Shown in pieces: positions 20,929-50,835 of a stretch of DNA of 64,000 bases. The notes under the pieces are model-generated. The model did not search any database, was not told the origin of the DNA, and saw only the letters and a program-made list of their open reading frames with translations. The stretch is from Prorocentrum cordatum (taxonomy: Eukaryota; Sar; Dinophyceae; Prorocentrales; Prorocentraceae): assembly GCA_963575745.1 (NCBI GenBank), contig CAUYUJ010017648.1, positions 62,001-126,000 on the forward strand, given 5' to 3'. Position 1 is the stretch's first letter. Every line of letters starts with the position of its first letter. The position numbers and the translations under genes were made by a program.

Positions 20929-20950
20929 TCCGAAGCCATTTTGGCTCAAG
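20929..20950 (+). other. DinoSL relict with one mismatch
   Basis: Identical to the 22-nt leader except A for T at position 5 (TCCGAAGCCATTTTGGCTCA, then AG). The next bases are GATC, not a GT donor. An ATG lies 15 bases downstream. It marks the 5' end of a retroposed, once trans-spliced mRNA. Confidence 0.85.
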
Positions 20951-42779: not shown

Positions 42780-43143
42780 CCCTCGAACTCCTCCTCCTCC
42801 TCCTCCTCCTCCTCCTCCTCCTCCTCCTCCTCCTCCTCCTCCTCCTCCTCCTCCTCCTCCTCCCCCTCTTCCTTCCCCTCCTCATCCTCCTCTTCCTCCT
42901 CTTCCTCCTCCTCATCCTTCTCCTCCTCGTCCTCCTCCTCCTCTTCCTTCTCCTCCTCCTCCTCCTCCTCCTCCTGTTCCTGCTCCTCCTCTTCCTCCGC
43001 AACTTGTTTCCTCTGCCTTCTCCTCCTCGACCTCTCCTCCTGTCTCCTCCTCCTCCTTCTCGACCTTCTCCTGTTCGACCTCCTCCTCCTCTTCCTCCTC
43101 TTCCGCCTCTTCCTCCTTCTCCTCCTCCTCCTCATCCTCTTCC
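42780..43143. repeat. Pyrimidine-rich CTC tract
   Basis: About 360 bp of CTC/TTC units. The LINE inserted at its 3' edge. Confidence 0.95.
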
Positions 43144-43155
43144 TCCTCGACCTTT
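43144..43155 (+). repeat. Left target-site duplication of the LINE
   Basis: TCCTCGACCTTT sits one base before the SL and recurs at 50304-50315. The left copy is embedded in a TCC-rich tract, which slightly raises the chance of coincidence; the right copy is in ordinary sequence. Confidence 0.65.
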
Positions 43156-43156
43156 T

Positions 43157-43178
43157 TCCGTAGCCATTTTGGCTCAAG
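43157..43178 (+). other. Perfect dinoflagellate spliced-leader relict
   Basis: The 22 bases match the DinoSL consensus with T at the variable first position. The core is CCGTAGCCATTTTGGCTCAA plus a final G. The next bases are ACCC, not the GT donor of an SL RNA gene, so this is a leader copied back from a trans-spliced mRNA and not an SL gene. It marks the 5' end of the retrotransposon transcript. Confidence 0.95.
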
Positions 43179-43313
43179 ACCCATGCTTTGGCGGGCTGAG
43201 CCCGCATTGGCAAAAACGGATACCGCTAGTCCGCGGCAGCTATCAACCAGTCAGGAGGTCCCTCACTCGAGGGGTTCGCGAGCCTCCAACATCCCTTTCC
43301 TTGCTCTCGCGCC

Positions 43314-44564
43314 ATGGCTCCTGCTGGCCCTGGTGAGTGGGAGCGCCGCCCGTGGGTCCAGTCCTCCAGGCCCCGTCGCTGGGGGGGCACTATACCTGAG
43401 GGCGGGGTATCGGCAGACAAGTGGGACAAATGGGACAGCCAGCGAGCCAAGCACGAGGAGGAATGGAAGACGGTGGCTGGGCCCAAAGGTGAAATTCTAT
43501 GCCACCACTGTGGTTGCCGAAAGAACTCAAAAGGATCGATGTGCTGCAAGCATTGTGGCCAAAAGCTCGGTTCTCGACCCCAACCTCTGGAAGACCCTGG
43601 GGCCCCCAAGTCGTCGGACGAGATGGGGAAGGGAGCGGGCAAGGGGAAGAAAGGTTATAAAGGCGGCAAGGGAGATCTGGTCGGTGGCAAGGGCACAGGC
43701 AACCTCTCCTCGGCACTCCCTCCTGGACCTGTTCCCGAGATTCCTCAGGCCAAGGCTCTCGAACTACAGCGTTTGGCTCGTGAGGCTGGGGACGCTGTGG
43801 GGGCCGCGCGCTATGGTGCCCTGGCGCAGAGGGCGGCTCCACCCCCGAAGCCGTCGGGGAGGCAGAGGCTCATTGCCGCAGAGCAGAAGCAGGAGAAGCT
43901 CGAGAAGCGCCTCAACAGTGAGTTCGAGAAGCTGGAGCGCTGGCGTCGGGCGACAGAAGAGCTGGCGGTCTCGGTCGGGGCCCTGGCCGACGAGCTGCAG
44001 GCCGCCGACGCCGAGGTGGCAGCCGCCCTGGTGGAGCTCCAGAGCCAGCACAGAGGACCACCAGCGACGGAGTCCAGCGGCCTGGCGAGCATCAGCCTGC
44101 GCAAGCTCATTGACGGTGAGATGGAGTTGGCCAGCCTTATTTCTTGTGACGATTTCATTGATGTGGAGGCTGTCAAGGGCAGCTACGAGGTGTCCGAAGA
44201 GGACCTACGTGAGCTCGAGGAACGCAAGAACGACGTGGCGAAGCAGATGCAAGAGGTGCTGGGATCGGTTTTTCGCCAAGCGCTGGAGAAGGCCAACTCC
44301 GCTCAGGACCAGCACAAGGAGCACCTCAAACGTCTTCAAGCAAAGCGACGACGTACCGCTGATGACGGCCCTGGGGAACAAGCAGCAGCCACAGGTGGGA
44401 TCGAGCCTGGACCAGGGGTATCGCCAAGCCCAGAGACAGCGACGCCGTGCTCACCTGCCGAGGCGACGGTGGATGCGGTGGGCAAGGCTGCCCCACAGGT
44501 GGACATTCGCTCTCGCGTCGCTGCTGACAGTGGTGTGCAAGCAGCTAAACGGGCGGGTCTTTAG
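43314..44564 (+). CDS. LINE ORF1: zinc-finger, coiled-coil nucleic-acid-binding protein
   Basis: 416 residues from an ATG in a GCCATGG context. Residues 63-81 hold CHHCGC...CCKHCG (Cys 63, 66, 77/78, 81), a CxxC...CxxC zinc ribbon expected to bind RNA. A Lys/Gly-rich segment follows at about 105-125. A long Glu/Lys/Arg-rich region with coiled-coil character covers about 170-350, and the C-terminus is charged and Pro-rich. This fits the gag-like first protein of LINEs, which coats the element RNA. Its last 203 bases overlap ORF2 in another frame. No relatives can be named from sequence alone. Confidence 0.8.
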   Translation: MAPAGPGEWERRPWVQSSRPRRWGGTIPEGGVSADKWDKWDSQRAKHEEEWKTVAGPKGEILCHHCGCRKNSKGSMCCKHCGQKLGSRPQPLEDPGAPKSSDEMGKGAGKGKKGYKGGKGDLVGGKGTGNLSSALPPGPVPEIPQAKALELQRLAREAGDAVGAARYGALAQRAAPPPKPSGRQRLIAAEQKQEKLEKRLNSEFEKLERWRRATEELAVSVGALADELQAADAEVAAALVELQSQHRGPPATESSGLASISLRKLIDGEMELASLISCDDFIDVEAVKGSYEVSEEDLRELEERKNDVAKQMQEVLGSVFRQALEKANSAQDQHKEHLKRLQAKRRRTADDGPGEQAAATGGIEPGPGVSPSPETATPCSPAEATVDAVGKAAPQVDIRSRVAADSGVQAAKRAGL

Positions 44565-47500
44565 CAACAGCGTGAGCTCGACACAGGTGGGGGCGACGTG
44601 GTCGAGTTCGGCGACTCCCTGTTCCTGGTCATCTCTTGGTGCCGTTCCTGAGAAGGCGGCCGCTAGCGCCCCCGCTCCTGAGAGGAGTAGCCCGAGGGAG
44701 CCCGCCTGCCTCGCGGCAGGGGCGGGTCCCAGGCGGGCAGCGGCGCTGGAGGAACGGGCACTGACGACGAAGTCGTTTGCCACGTGCGCATCGTCGAGGC
44801 CATCTTCTTCGGTTGAGTGGTCATCGTCGGGGTTGGGTACTCCCTGTGCTGCGGTGTCGCCGTCGGCTCCAGTGTCGGCAACTCCCTGGGCAGCGGTGGC
44901 GACGTCGACTTCGCGGGTGGCGTCTACCAGTTTTGTCGGATCGGAGTCCAGGTGCGCCTCGAGCCTGGTCTCCTCAGAGTTAAATTGCGAGGAAGAGTGG
45001 CCGCGGGCTTCGGCGACAGGTCAGAGCGCCGAGTACGTGACAGCCAGTCAGATCGCAGCCGTCAAGCCCAACCAGAGCTTGGCGGCCCTCCTGTCCAAAC
45101 CTTTTGTCGGATGCAGTAAGGAAATCTCAGCGTCAGAACGCGACAGCCAGGTGCTCCTCGAGCCTGGCTGTCTCAGAGTAGATTGTGAGAACCTATCGTG
45201 GGAGTCTGGAGTTAGATCGCTAAATCCTGGGGGCAACCGATGCTCGGACGAAGTGCCCACCCAGGTTCAGTCGCCACGTGCTGGGTCTCGAGCCAAGGGA
45301 GTCAGTGTTGAGCAACCTCATGGAGAGTCTCAAGCAGCGCTGCAGCAGAAGCAAGTCATCTCATTGTTGGAAGGGCTCCCTCCTGAGGATCGCGGTGCAC
45401 TAGGTACGTTCAGAGTGGGCACTCTGAATGCGAATACGTGGCCAAGGGCTCGGAATACCATGCCATGGATTGAGAAACAATGCCAGATGCCGCATGTGTT
45501 ATGCATTCAGGAGACCGTGCTGGACCAGTCGGGGGAAGCAGGGGCCCATCAATGGTCTCGCACTTGCTCTCGGAAGCTGGCGCTGGGTTCTGCCAAGCGC
45601 ACAGGAGAATCGGCCAGATCTTTCTCAGCAGGAGTTGGCTTGTCTGCGGCCATGGGCATTGGGGTGGCCAAGCTCCAGGTGCCGGAGAGATGGCAGCACC
45701 GTGTGGTGATGAGACTCATGACGGTTGGCACGCACTCGTGGATCATCATCGGCTCAATCTACGGCGTCGACTCGATCGGCCCCAAGGGCGAGAACCTGGA
45801 GTTGTTGGAGTTCCTTAGCGCCTTCCTGGGGGCGCAGCGTTTCCCGTTCCTGCTGGGAGGCGACTGGAATCTAGAACCCGAGGAGATCATGGAGATAGGC
45901 TGGCTGGACCTGGCATCCGCCACCATCTTCGCACCTGGCCTCCCAACCTGCAATGGCAAAGAGTATGACTACTTCATTGGATCCCAGGCCCTGGACGCCT
46001 TCCCCATGTCGGTGGAGGCCAAGGTGGACACGCCGATCTCGCCACACTGCTACGTGGAGATCAAGCTTGAGGGCCTCAGGGACGAGCCGTTTGTCTGGGT
46101 CGAGGCGCCCCCGCGAGCCTTTCCTCTGGCCGACCAGGAGGCCAAGAGGAAGACCAGGAAGAAGGATATGTGTGCCAAGGAGACCGTACTCACCTCGACC
46201 ACGGAACCGCCATTGGTACTTGTGCTTGACGAGTGGCATCTGGACGCCCCAGTGAGCTCGGTCGAGGAGGCGGCAGCGAAGTGGTTCCACGCGGCGGAGA
46301 AGTACCTGGTGCAGTTGTTCGAGATTCCGTCCTCGGACAGAAGGTTCTATGTTGGCAGGGAGAAGGGCGTGGTACTCAAGAAGAAGAGGCTGGTGGATTG
46401 TGCGAAGTCTATTCTTGAGCGCCACGACGAGTCGGACACCAGAGCTTGGCTGAGTGCCCTCAGGCTATGGGATGCCCTATGTGTAGCATCGTCAGCTCCG
46501 CCTGGTTCGAAAGCAGGCAGACCAGAGCACTCCGCGAGGTGCGAAAGGCAGCTGCTGTCCCTGAGGCTCCCTGAGGCCATCTCGGACTCCCCCTCCCTGC
46601 AGGCAAAGGATGTCCAGAAGTGGGTCGCCTTGGCCAAGAGGGGAGGTCAATTGTCTGCCTGGTTTCGGACTGTGCTTGCGGAGGAGGTTGAGGTGCGCAG
46701 GCGCAAGGACTCACAAGCCAGGAGCAAAGCCTGGAGAGAGTTTGGCGAGCTCGCAGCTGATGGCTCTGGCAGAATAGCGCACGCGATTTCTAGGCCCAAG
46801 ATGTTGGAGGAGGCGCCCACGCTGGCCAAGGGCAAGCCCCATGGTCTGGTGGGAGCTGCGGCGATCACGGCGGTGCTGGAGGAATGGGAAGAGTTGTGGA
46901 TCTCTGACGACAGGGCCCAGGAGGCAGCGCCGTCTGACTGGAGTTACCCGTGGAAGCTCGACCAGATCTCGGAGGACCAGATCGTTCAGGTCTGCCGCTC
47001 CTTTGGTGTGTCTACTGGTCTAGGCTGGGACAACTTTCACATGAGGTTGGTAAGTTTCCTGGATGGGGTGTTTGTGCGGAGGCTACTAGAGATTATATCA
47101 ATATGGGAGCGCAATCCGCACTGTGAGCGCATGTGGGTCACGATCAATGTATTTCTGCCTAAGCCAGGAGGAGGTGCACGCCCGATAGGGCTCTTGTGCT
47201 TCTGGGCACGCATTTGGAGCAGATGCAGGAGGCAGTATGTCAAGAGTTGGGAGGTGTCTGTGGATGCGAAGTTTTTCTGGGGAAAAGACGCCACGACCAG
47301 TTGCGACAAGGCGGCGTACGTGCACAACATGCTGGCCTGCTACGCCAGGAGGAAGAGGCTGTCGGCCATAACTGTGTTCTATGACATCCGCAAGTTCTAC
47401 GAGAATGTCAGTCATCAGCAGCTTCGAGAAGCAGCAGAGCACTACAACTTCGACGGCGCCTTGCTGAAGGCGCTCTGCTGCCTGTATCGAGCACCACGCC

Positions 47501-50244
47501 GTGCGCGATGGACAGGGGGCACGGGCAGAGTCAGTCATCCGAATGGTACTATCGTGGCTGGCTGCAGTGCGGCAACAGGAGTGGCGAAGCTGATGACCTT
47601 GTGCCTCCTCAAGCGCCTGGCGGAGGAGACGCCTCCGTGTCGTGCGCTGAATGTGGTCGATGATTTGACGACGCATACCATTGGAGGCCCCAGGACGGTT
47701 GTTGAGAACACGGTCAAGAGTTTCGAGATTGTCACCTCGGAGCTGGACTCAAGGAAGTTGCCTATTAATTGGGACAAGACTAGATTCATGATGTCCGACC
47801 GCTCGCAGCTGTCTGCTTTGATACAGGATCCCAGGTGGAGTCTTTCGGACGACAAGCTGGTCATCGCCCACCGCGACCTCGGCGGCGACTCGCTGGACGG
47901 CAGGGCGAGGAGGGTCGGCACGCAGACTTCGAGATGTGAGGCCGCCAGCAGCACGGCACGTGCCCTACGTCAGCTGGGGCAGAGTGAAAAGCATAGTAGA
48001 GTGTTTCGTGTGGGAGCGCTGGCTAAAGCTTCTTGGGGATCCCACATTTTGGGGATCCCGCCGACCACCCTCCATAAGCTTAGGGTCCAAGCTGCGAGAT
48101 CCTGGGGCCCGCTTCTTCCTGGCACTTCCCTGGGCTTCAGGTTTCTTTCGGCCGCTCGCCTCTGGCTCAGGGACCCGCTTTTGGTGACGGTGACGTCGGC
48201 TGTAAAGGAATTCGTCAGTGTCTGGTGGGCCCGCTCGATTTCTAAACCAGTGTTGGAAGCTTGTGTCCAGGACGCCCTTGCGGTCCAGGGGAGTAGGGCC
48301 CCCTGGGGCCAAGTCCGTCAGCCTGTTGCTGCGCTGTTCTTGCAGCTGGCTCGGATCCGCTGGAGGTTTGACGTGTCTCGAATGGCCCTGGTTGACGACC
48401 TCAACCGTGTGTGGTCAATTGATCGGTTTTCGCCCAAGTTTTTCACCCTTCTCCTGCGAGGCTCGGTCGTTCGGGCTATCGAGCGGGAGGAGCAGTTGAA
48501 ACAGTTCGATTTCGGGATGTGGAGCGGCCCAGTGTTCTGGCAGCCCATTCATCAGCTCCTAGGGCGGAAATGTTCTGAGTCGTGGACAAAGTCGCACAAG
48601 GCAGCTCTTTCAGCCCTGTGCGCGAATGTGTACTGGTGCCAGCACAGAGTGTGCGAGCACAGCCCAGAGGCCCCTGACCAATGCCAGCTTTGCAGAGATG
48701 GTAGAGGCACGTTGTACCACCGCAGGTTTCAGTGTGTGGCTTTCGCTCCCTGGCGACGCGAGAACCTGGATCCCGTGGTTGAGAAGGCGGCTCGTGCGAT
48801 TGGCCATCTCCCCACTCCTGCTGGAGAACTTTTTAGCAGATGTCTTTTCCCCAACCCTGCGGCCTGGGTGGAGCGACCCCCCCGCGACCCTCTGAACCCG
48901 TGCACCAGGCACTTTCAGTGGCCTCAGGACGGCCCTCTGTTCATTCCCGAGGGGGCACATGTGTTCACGGACGGGTCAGGCTTTGAAGGGGAGCTCACAG
49001 GTCTCGGGACCGCGGGTTGGGCTGTTGTGGTGCTGGACAGGTTGGGGAGGACCCTCGCTGCCCTTTTTGGGGTCGTGCCGATCGGGGAAGCGCCTGGACA
49101 GCAGGCACGCGATGGCGAGGATTTCGCTGTACTGATGCTCTCCCGACGCTCGGTCCTCTCCGCAGGTGTTTCGCTCCATGTGGACTGCGCGGCCACGGTC
49201 GGCTGCCTCCGAAACCTCGCGGGGGCTGCTGGGGCGGCCTCGGCCCGAGCCCACTGGTGGGCGGAGATTGGGGACCGTTTAGAGGGCGTGGAGGTGCATC
49301 AGATCCCGTCTCACTCGTCGATGATTGATGTTAGGGAAGGCCGTATCACGGAAATGCAGCGTTTTGGGAACTCTGAGGCAGACAGACTCGCCAAGGAAGG
49401 AGCTGAGCCATTCCGAATTTCGTGCGAGGACCGCCAGTTTGTAACTGGTTATGCTGAATTTGTCCGTCGTGTCGGGCTGTACAGTGCCAGGCAGCAGGCT
49501 GAGTGTAGAGAGTTGGCCCTGAACGATCATCAAGGGTTGGAATGGCTCGGCTACGTCCTCCTGGACGCGGTCCCTGGCCTCCCCCTTCCTGGTTCGAACC
49601 CTGGGGATGGTGAGCCAAGTGCGCAGTGCGGTGTGCCTCTGGGTGTGCCTGGTGAGGGGGAGGTCCCTGGCGAGATCCCTGGTGCACACTCTGGTGAGGC
49701 GCCTCCCGAGAACCCCCCGACCCCAGGAGCATGGCTCCAGCTGGGACACTCCCTCGAGCAGGGGGTGGTTTATGAGTCGGACGGCTGCACGTATCACGAC
49801 ACGATGCTGTGTTGTACGGCTTGCGGTGCAATGGCACACTCCAGCACGAAACGGGGGAATCTGCGGTCGAGGTGTCGTCCTGTCGCGTCGTGGGGACGGG
49901 GGTTCTACCTTGACCGATTTCGTGCTGGAAGGTATCCTGCGCATAGGAACCCTAGAGGGCTCACTATGGCGTACACAGGGGCCCCCTCTCCAGAGGTTCG
50001 CTCGGAGTGGAGGCCCTACTTTGAGGCCTGGTCCCAGGGCCGCGACCGCCCTCCGAGAGTTGCTCGGAGGGCCCAGCCCTCGCGCCGCGAGGGACCCGCT
50101 GCCGACCGTGCGCGAGGCGTTGGCATGCTCGGTCTGTCGAGGGCGGAGGTCGTGGAGCTCGGGGCCGAGGTCGAGGCCAGGCGCTGGAGAGGTGGTCTCC
50201 CCGTGGAGGAGGAGGATCTCTTCGGCTGCCTGGGCCCCTCCTAA
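44362..50244 (+). CDS. LINE ORF2: endonuclease, reverse transcriptase, RNase H
   Basis: 1960 residues from the ATG at 44362. The frame is open further upstream, but that part is the shadow of ORF1 and a microsatellite. Residues 1-350 are a low-complexity Ser/Ala-rich region. The endonuclease/exonuclease/phosphatase domain covers about 353-565: LNAN 355-358, Glu384 in IQET, GGDWN with Asp501 and Asn503, His562 in SPH (usually SDH). The reverse transcriptase covers about 930-1190: Asp1008 in FYDIRKFYE (motif A) and Asp1100-Asp1101 in VVDD, in place of YADD. A CxxH...CxxC cluster lies at about 1426-1444. RNase H covers about 1533-1680: TDGS Asp1537, Glu1586, Asp1608, His1651 and Asp1674, a complete DEDD set. 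A CCxxC cluster lies near 1817-1821. It nicks the target and reverse-transcribes the element RNA. Confidence 0.92.
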   Translation: MTALGNKQQPQVGSSLDQGYRQAQRQRRRAHLPRRRWMRWARLPHRWTFALASLLTVVCKQLNGRVFSNSVSSTQVGATWSSSATPCSWSSLGAVPEKAAASAPAPERSSPREPACLAAGAGPRRAAALEERALTTKSFATCASSRPSSSVEWSSSGLGTPCAAVSPSAPVSATPWAAVATSTSRVASTSFVGSESRCASSLVSSELNCEEEWPRASATGQSAEYVTASQIAAVKPNQSLAALLSKPFVGCSKEISASERDSQVLLEPGCLRVDCENLSWESGVRSLNPGGNRCSDEVPTQVQSPRAGSRAKGVSVEQPHGESQAALQQKQVISLLEGLPPEDRGALGTFRVGTLNANTWPRARNTMPWIEKQCQMPHVLCIQETVLDQSGEAGAHQWSRTCSRKLALGSAKRTGESARSFSAGVGLSAAMGIGVAKLQVPERWQHRVVMRLMTVGTHSWIIIGSIYGVDSIGPKGENLELLEFLSAFLGAQRFPFLLGGDWNLEPEEIMEIGWLDLASATIFAPGLPTCNGKEYDYFIGSQALDAFPMSVEAKVDTPISPHCYVEIKLEGLRDEPFVWVEAPPRAFPLADQEAKRKTRKKDMCAKETVLTSTTEPPLVLVLDEWHLDAPVSSVEEAAAKWFHAAEKYLVQLFEIPSSDRRFYVGREKGVVLKKKRLVDCAKSILERHDESDTRAWLSALRLWDALCVASSAPPGSKAGRPEHSARCERQLLSLRLPEAISDSPSLQAKDVQKWVALAKRGGQLSAWFRTVLAEEVEVRRRKDSQARSKAWREFGELAADGSGRIAHAISRPKMLEEAPTLAKGKPHGLVGAAAITAVLEEWEELWISDDRAQEAAPSDWSYPWKLDQISEDQIVQVCRSFGVSTGLGWDNFHMRLVSFLDGVFVRRLLEIISIWERNPHCERMWVTINVFLPKPGGGARPIGLLCFWARIWSRCRRQYVKSWEVSVDAKFFWGKDATTSCDKAAYVHNMLACYARRKRLSAITVFYDIRKFYENVSHQQLREAAEHYNFDGALLKALCCLYRAPRRARWTGGTGRVSHPNGTIVAGCSAATGVAKLMTLCLLKRLAEETPPCRALNVVDDLTTHTIGGPRTVVENTVKSFEIVTSELDSRKLPINWDKTRFMMSDRSQLSALIQDPRWSLSDDKLVIAHRDLGGDSLDGRARRVGTQTSRCEAASSTARALRQLGQSEKHSRVFRVGALAKASWGSHILGIPPTTLHKLRVQAARSWGPLLPGTSLGFRFLSAARLWLRDPLLVTVTSAVKEFVSVWWARSISKPVLEACVQDALAVQGSRAPWGQVRQPVAALFLQLARIRWRFDVSRMALVDDLNRVWSIDRFSPKFFTLLLRGSVVRAIEREEQLKQFDFGMWSGPVFWQPIHQLLGRKCSESWTKSHKAALSALCANVYWCQHRVCEHSPEAPDQCQLCRDGRGTLYHRRFQCVAFAPWRRENLDPVVEKAARAIGHLPTPAGELFSRCLFPNPAAWVERPPRDPLNPCTRHFQWPQDGPLFIPEGAHVFTDGSGFEGELTGLGTAGWAVVVLDRLGRTLAALFGVVPIGEAPGQQARDGEDFAVLMLSRRSVLSAGVSLHVDCAATVGCLRNLAGAAGAASARAHWWAEIGDRLEGVEVHQIPSHSSMIDVREGRITEMQRFGNSEADRLAKEGAEPFRISCEDRQFVTGYAEFVRRVGLYSARQQAECRELALNDHQGLEWLGYVLLDAVPGLPLPGSNPGDGEPSAQCGVPLGVPGEGEVPGEIPGAHSGEAPPENPPTPGAWLQLGHSLEQGVVYESDGCTYHDTMLCCTACGAMAHSSTKRGNLRSRCRPVASWGRGFYLDRFRAGRYPAHRNPRGLTMAYTGAPSPEVRSEWRPYFEAWSQGRDRPPRVARRAQPSRREGPAADRARGVGMLGLSRAEVVELGAEVEARRWRGGLPVEEEDLFGCLGPS

Positions 50245-50303
50245 CTTGTTTGTTTTTCTTTGTTTGCATGCGAATTGGGTCACTCCCTTCGTGGTCGTGG
50301 GCG

Positions 50304-50315
50304 TCCTCGACCTTT
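50304..50315 (+). repeat. Right target-site duplication of the LINE
   Basis: Second copy of TCCTCGACCTTT, 59 bases after the ORF2 stop. It sets the 3' end of the inserted copy. Confidence 0.65.
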
Positions 50316-50673
50316 GGAACAGTGTCGAGATTATTGCCCTTTTCAGATCGCTGCCGTAATCATAAGCACCATTTTGGTGCAGGACGACGGGAAATGGGGC
50401 GATGTTGTTGAAGTCGCTGTTTCCTGCGCTCGTGGGTATTCGCTTTCATGTGGGCGACGGTGACCAACACCGCGCTTGTTCTGTCTACGGTGGGTGTACC
50501 AAGCAGAGCCTGGAATAAGTGAGTGGATACGTAAATCGGAGGTTGAGGGGTGAGATCGCAGTGAAACGGAGACCCCCCTCCGGGAAATCGGAATCGGTTT
50601 CGTGTTCGTGTCGTGCGTGCGGGCGAGGCGAAGCTGCGCGTGATCCTCCTGTAGCTAGGCCGAAATAGGAGCG

Positions 50674-50835
50674 AAAGTCTATTGCCCGTCCGCCGGTGGC
50701 CAGGAGGTGTCCCAGTTGGGCCGGGCGGTGTCTCAGGTGTCCCGGGTGTCAGTGAACGAAAGTCCGCTTCCCGTCCGCCGGTGGCCGGGAGGTGTCCCAG
50801 TTGGGCCGGGCGGTATCCCGGGCGTCCCAGCGTTA
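50674..50835. repeat. 85-bp tandem duplication
   Basis: CGTCCGCCGGTGGCC(A/G)GGAG, GTGTCCCAGTTGGGCCGGGC twice. Confidence 0.9.

Follow-up and report, generated by a model that had tools for sequence, protein, structure and literature searches.

A 64,000-nucleotide stretch of the genome of the dinoflagellate Prorocentrum cordatum (GenBank assembly GCA_963575745.1, contig CAUYUJ010017648.1, positions 62,001 to 126,000 of the forward strand), here called the window and numbered from its first base, carries a long interspersed nuclear element (LINE) of 7,147 bp on its + strand, from 43157 to 50303. The first 22 bases of this element are a perfect dinoflagellate spliced leader (DinoSL, in the following SL). 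We describe the element, its copies in the genome and the way in which it very probably moves, namely as a trans-spliced mRNA. The window copy comprises two open reading frames (ORFs), a 3' untranslated region (UTR) and flanking target-site duplications, arranged as follows.

43144 to 43155, + strand: 5' target-site duplication TCCTCGACCTTT, which closes a CCT-rich tract extending upstream; exact repeat of 50304 to 50315, copy-specific at other loci
43157 to 43178, + strand: 22-nt DinoSL with an internal AG (43162 to 43163) and a terminal AG (43177 to 43178); perfect in 43 of 48 places in the genome
43183 to 50244, + strand: long ORF2 frame of 2,353 codons, from an AUG 4 nt past the SL to the stop
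43314 to 44564, + strand: ORF1, 416 amino acids, Cys-rich and apparently zinc-ribbon-like, in another phase within the ORF2 frame; codon-position-3 bias, relative P0008
45406 to 46065, + strand: endonuclease domain of the apurinic/apyrimidinic endonuclease (APE)/exonuclease III type, approximate limits; Pfam, profile and invariant residues
47158 to 47793, + strand: reverse transcriptase (RT) domain, Pfam limits; RVT_1, LINE-1 ORF2p profile and VDD motif
50245 to 50303, + strand: 3' UTR with the fixed end ...GTGGTCGTGGGCG and no poly(A); the end recurs in all 21 scored copies
50304 to 50315, + strand: 3' target-site duplication TCCTCGACCTTT, exact repeat of 43144 to 43155

An initial annotation, made from the sequence alone, had proposed that the element starts exactly at a perfect 22-nt DinoSL, and this was borne out. 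The perfect 21-mer CCGTAGCCATTTTGGCTCAAG occupies 43158 to 43178, the T at 43157 supplies nucleotide 1 of the 22-mer, and shuffled versions of the window contained no match to the DinoSL 21-mer even with three mismatches allowed. The duplication had been placed directly before the SL; TCCTCGACCTTT does stand on that side, but a single extra T (43156) lies in between. Its recurrence 59 bases past the ORF2 stop, which ends at 50244, is exact. A chance repeat was rejected as the source of the pair, since these are the sole exact occurrences in the window and copy-specific duplications are found elsewhere.

The element is a LINE of the APE type, with an RT, an endonuclease N-terminal to it, no terminal repeats, target duplications and 5'-truncated copies. 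A long terminal repeat (LTR) element was rejected, as no direct or inverted repeat of at least 30 bp was found at a seed of 14. The ORF2 frame encodes an N-terminal leader, the endonuclease, the RT (Pfam RVT_1, E 1e-10, with a VDD motif), an RNase H-like region and a C-terminal Cys-rich region. A PDB search with the single ORF2 sequence found no chain. The alignment-based search matched 13 sequences, with LINE-1 ORF2p and exonuclease III as the best; the six-sequence profile gave E values of 1.4e-9 for LINE-1 ORF2p and 1.2e-5 for exonuclease III structures. In the single sequence, the endonuclease matched Pfam Exo_endo_phos at 45445 to 45978 with an E value of 0.0027, below the curated cut-off; the same family matched above the Pfam cut-off in the relative P0004, and the catalytic positions N10, E38, D155 and H216 were invariant in six aligned sequences. 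The RNase H-like region was called solely from its alignment motifs (DGS, D and N..AD), because Pfam gave no match there.

Among the matches listed, ORF2 has at least five relatives in the database at 24 to 30% identity, and ORF1 has a single one, P0008, at 33% identity. Judged by eye, ORF1 appears to carry a Cys-rich, zinc-ribbon-like stretch. No match to ORF2 was found in an IMG/VR scan. Rfam analysis of 42900 to 50700 at E values up to 1 matched no ribozyme family, and a ribozyme-processed 5' end was rejected on this basis; the sole match in that region was an unrelated leader (E 0.22, under the gathering score).

To place the window copy among its relatives, the whole genome (4,128,499,153 bases in 21,875 contigs) was searched. 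A DNA similarity search brought up 1,059 first-look candidates, of which 21 were scored, and these 21 loci, the window element included, gave 27 matches. A full perfect SL was present in 16 of them; in L011 half of the SL is N-masked, L014 is N-masked, and L010, L015 and L020 are 5'-truncated. One SL-complete copy, L016 (contig C6329), has a broken ORF1 frame, and its alignment in the similarity search breaks off past query base 487, some 474 bases from the element's start.

Furthermore, a 36-base pattern running from the SL into the element had 43 exact matches in the genome, and a 25-base pattern lying immediately 3' of the SL, and blind to the SL itself, had 48; copies altered within the latter pattern lie outside this sample of 48 places. 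The copies were found to start predominantly at the SL, with the perfect SL 21-mer in 43 of the 48 places. Five places lay beyond the 36-base set: L013 and L064 have a perfect SL with a base change directly after it, L062 has one SL mutation, the SL of L063 is decayed, and L065 is truncated within the SL. Within the 36-base set, L043 begins with CGTAG, being 1 to 2 nt short or changed, and L011 is half masked.

Upstream of the SL, the copies have next to nothing in common. Within up to 140 nt in the 48 places, no 12-mer with at least two purines was common to more than two of them. Sharing of such 12-mers was strongest in L022/L051 (16) and L025/L045 (8), which may be duplicated loci, either duplicates or alleles, and the 48 places are for this reason not 48 independent insertions. 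One to four purine-bearing 12-mers were shared by L040/L047, L043/L061, L047/L063, L001/L057, L001/L038 and L024/L051.

The sequence directly before the SL is of one class. Pyrimidines make up at least 85% of the 40 nt preceding the SL in 42 of 43 junctions (the set comprises 42 of the 36-base matches plus L013, L011 being masked), a level reached by 1.7% of the 40-mers in the window; the exception is L043, at 0.78. Upstream sequences of L062, L063, L064 and L065 are 93 to 100% pyrimidine, and those of L011 and L014 are unreadable. The element's sense strand lies on the pyrimidine strand in 43 of 43 junctions, readable insertions are in TCC-rich tracts, that is, in one microsatellite class, and the TCC start of the window duplication is shown by nearly every insertion of the family. 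L006 and L053 share CCTCTTCGCTCT right before the SL and differ further out, which could reflect either a favored target word or a recombinant locus.

Analysis of AG dinucleotides revealed that, in 44 of 45 junctions, the AG preceding the first one of the SL is at least 34 nt away (9 nt in L043); 18 of the 45 have no AG in the up to 150 nt examined, and the median gap from AG to AG in the window is 7.5 nt. A TCC-rich pyrimidine tract followed by an AG-ending SL thus resembles a 3' splice acceptor, and it may be used as one.

The 12-bp target duplication seen in the window, also part of the initial annotation, proved to be real. Both flanks were readable in 19 copies, of which 10 have a 3' flank other than pure TCC. 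Eight of these 10 informative copies (L001, L005, L006, L008, L010, L017, L018 and L019) have their own exact duplication of 12 to 14 bp, which differs from copy to copy, whereas only 8 of 180 mismatched flank pairs reached 11 bp; no such duplication was found in L015 and L020. Among the nine copies with a pure-TCC 3' flank, eight give repeats of at least 16 bp, which are uninformative because they are indistinguishable from the tract, and the repeat of L021 is only 4 bp long. At the 3' junction, all 21 ends read show GGGCG and then TCC, or TCG in L010, and the 3' poly(A) of a processed mRNA was found in none of them; L008 has one substitution just before this end. The 5'-truncated L010, L015 and L020 have no SL, yet they have the same target and the same 3' end.

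A tandem arrangement of CCGTAGCCATTTTGGCTCAAG plus CCATTTTGGCTCAAG, i.e., a complete SL followed by a 15-nt SL, was observed in 3 of the 48 places, L008, L018 (the same locus as L023) and L035. The copies in L008 and L018 diverge by 9.1%, belong to different subfamilies and each group with single-SL relatives, so that their tandem SLs look like independent events. Trans-splicing of an SL-bearing copy's transcript at the SL-internal AG (CCGTAG/CC) would leave just such a 15-nt second unit behind. By this interpretation of the sequences, the tandem SLs are evidence, indirect but specific, that trans-splicing has occurred repeatedly. Use of the terminal AG (CTCAAG/ACCC), in turn, would restore a single SL without a trace, and single SLs are therefore no argument against re-splicing. 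Relicts of the tandem form are known from dinoflagellate retrogenes (PMC12014239, PMC7245778; here and below, articles are cited by their PubMed Central number for the portions of their text that were available).

The SL also adjoins an unusual coding arrangement. The first AUG of the ORF2 frame is at 43183, 4 bases after the SL, and the frame spans the whole of ORF1, whose own AUG has the context GCCATGG. From the SL to 50244, the ORF2 frame is stop-free in 13 of the 16 SL-complete copies and broken in L009, L016 and L018. Further in-frame ORF2 AUGs lie within the overlap at 43813, 44161, 44362 and 44473; none follows the ORF1 stop before 45460, a position that falls within the endonuclease domain. 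When ORF1 was shuffled synonymously, the +1 frame was stop-free in 1 of 20,000 trials, with about eight stops being typical, in a test that preserves codon usage and not neighbor effects. Substitutions between subfamilies favor codon position 3 of ORF1 in the overlap, show no clear codon pattern from 44565 to 45400 and fall mostly on codon position 3 of ORF2 after 45400. Relative to the other subfamilies, 135 bp are deleted in frame within 44565 to 45400 in L021 and in the L017-L020 group.

The codon patterns suggest that ORF1 is constrained as a protein and that the overlapping ORF2 frame is kept open but otherwise without visible constraint. This would be expected if ORF2 starts at the SL-proximal AUG and ORF1 is reached by leaky scanning to GCCATGG. 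Alternatively, ORF2 could be translated via a +1 frameshift out of ORF1 or from a later AUG, but neither would require the entire upstream ORF2 frame to be open. More tentatively, since the AUG 4 bases past the SL opens the ORF2 frame, the translation start of ORF2 might also be set by trans-splicing. The overlapping ORF2 start and the TCC-rich target are additions to the initial annotation.

From these observations, we consider it highly likely that the element is an APE-type LINE whose template for retrotransposition is its own trans-spliced mRNA. The initial annotation had read the locus in the same way, as a transcript that was trans-spliced and whose mature RNA was reverse-transcribed, and this is supported by the lack of shared upstream sequence beyond pairs of loci, the varying duplications and the three tandem SLs. 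In such a cycle, a genomic copy would be transcribed, probably by read-through from upstream, and trans-splicing would exchange everything upstream of the element for the 22-nt DinoSL; in the DNA, this step is suggested by the SL as the exact 5' end of the copies and by the tandem SLs of a re-spliced form. The ORF1 and ORF2 proteins would bind the trans-spliced mRNA, the endonuclease would act on a TCC-rich tract by nicking its purine strand, and the RT would begin at the fixed 3' end ...GGGCG. Here, target and 3' end are seen at the junctions, and the enzymatic steps are those we propose. Reverse transcription up to the SL's first nucleotide would yield a full-length copy with a duplication of 12 to 14 bp. 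Every new copy would again have a pyrimidine tract directly before an AG-ending SL, an architecture that is present in the genome and could serve as the acceptor for the next round of trans-splicing.

The earlier suggestion that the SL as 5' end would permit full-length, capped copies without an internal promoter is plausible. More tentatively, the choice of target may itself be part of the expression strategy: TCC tract and SL would be born as a complete trans-splice acceptor, no own promoter or 5' signal would be needed, the host would trim any read-through transcript, cap it and add the SL, and the 5' end would be renewed in each cycle.

It is conceivable, but in our view unlikely, that a single capture brought the SL into the element, where it is now encoded in the DNA as a promoter or transcription start, with later copies arising without new trans-splicing. 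The absence of tandem SLs from 45 of the 48 places would be expected if the first base of the SL is where transcription starts; for retrogenes, DinoSL has been suggested to contain a TTT(G) promoter motif, and a promoter located upstream would yield many tandem SLs (PMC6050394). However, the tandem SLs of L008 and L018, in two subfamilies, and of L035 need re-splicing, and the many single SLs do not oppose it, as traceless splicing at the terminal AG regenerates them. Along the tree of the 16 SL-complete copies, furthermore, no change occurred in the 21 bases of the SL, while about 4.8 were expected, and the other five scored copies contain no mutated visible SL. This leans towards renewal of the SL, but it is only suggestive because SL-complete status was set by exact match and the SLs of L062 and L063 are mutated.

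Much less probable still is an ordinary retrogene, i.e., a LINE mRNA that was retroposed by other machinery and left the window copy as a dead by-product. SL-tagged retrogenes are common in dinoflagellates (PMC6050394, PMC12014239, PMC7245778), and the window contains a second SL relict at 20930 to 20950, with one mismatch (CCGAAGCC...) and following frames of at most 166 codons, which looks like a decayed SL-tagged retrogene. This relict, as the sole comparison, lies outside a pyrimidine tract (0.475 pyrimidine in the 40 nt upstream). The LINE, by contrast, occupies 48 places in several subfamilies and one target class, has one fixed 3' end in the 21 copies whose end was read, retains an intact ORF2 frame in 13 of 16 SL-complete copies and carries most ORF2 substitutions after 45400 at codon position 3. 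Spread from one locus by DNA duplication is opposed by the differing target duplications, though two pairs of loci look duplicated. As to a site-specific insertion into SL RNA genes, the SL at the 5' junction would then belong to the target; we give this practically no chance and rejected it, since flanks and duplications in the junctions read are TCC-rich tracts and not SL gene sequence, and the 5'-truncated copies in the same target class have no SL.

Several observations weigh against retrotransposition via the element's own trans-spliced mRNA. The SLs of L062 and L063 are mutated, a purine-rich stretch adjoins the SL of L043, and the exact 12-bp duplication is absent in 3 of 19 copies (L015, L020 and L021). 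Without poly(A), moreover, the 3' end of the template is not that of an ordinary processed mRNA. Finally, simple scanning would favor the first, internal AG, yet tandem SLs occur in only 3 of 48 places; hence either the terminal AG must prevail, or many templates begin at the SL and are not re-spliced. If re-splicing takes place in every cycle, the 3 of 48 would be a rough genomic readout of AG choice.

Apart from the LINE, a Pfam search of ten other long ORFs in the window gave a single match, a short GATase_2 on 2047 to 2703. An IMG/VR scan with the SL found one contig, L028, which is A+T-rich. A perfect DinoSL occurs twice on the same strand within its positions 2746 to 2913, at a distance of 147 bp, and one of the two precedes a G+C-richer stretch.

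SL-tagged retrogenes of dinoflagellates (Slamovits and Keeling 2008, as cited in PMC6050394, PMC12014239 and PMC7245778) are among the closest known systems. The LINE resembles them in its SL relict at the 5' end and in the tandem relicts of SL plus CCATTTTGGCTCAAG; unlike them, it is a LINE mRNA with its own machinery, a fixed 3' end without poly(A), one target class and duplications of 12 to 14 bp. Kibi, Koshi and Waldo are non-LTR retrotransposons specific for microsatellites. Further examples are Togen on (TG)n and some HERO families (PMC4640811). With such elements, the LINE shares the restriction to one microsatellite class, one orientation and a fixed 3' end, and it differs from them in its TCC-rich target and in the spliced leader as 5' end. 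SLACS, CZAR, CRE and NeSL insert site-specifically into SL RNA genes. SL exons are also mentioned as a LINE target in PMC4640811.

The trypanosomatid L1Tc/ingi elements are likewise LINEs whose hosts have polycistronic transcription and SL trans-splicing (PMC4748587, PMC8190864, PMC4035085). L1Tc has an internal Pr77 promoter, a hepatitis delta virus (HDV)-like ribozyme and unspliced transcripts without SL (PMC4748587), whereas Rfam, at E values up to 1, matched no ribozyme in the present LINE. R2, which resides in 28S ribosomal DNA, has an HDV-like self-cleaving ribozyme. In R2, the 5' end comes from processing of a co-transcript (in part PMC3774820), as it would in this LINE, with host trans-splicing here taking the place of the ribozyme. 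A search of the open-access literature, in the portions available and with subscription papers mostly outside its reach, found no report of a LINE with an SL end. Both SL-tagged retrogenes and LINEs specific for microsatellites were already known; here the two are combined.

A LINE must carry its 5' end, usually with a promoter, inside the part that is copied. Known answers to this problem are internal promoters or ribozymes that free the element from a read-through transcript. The P. cordatum element points to a third answer, in which the SL of the host would supply and renew the 5' end and the landing site would supply the pyrimidine tract of the acceptor. Which type of RT recycles dinoflagellate mRNAs is unknown, with LTR elements being favored (PMC6050394). 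A non-LTR family that bears the mark of trans-spliced mRNA, at least of its own, bears on this question.

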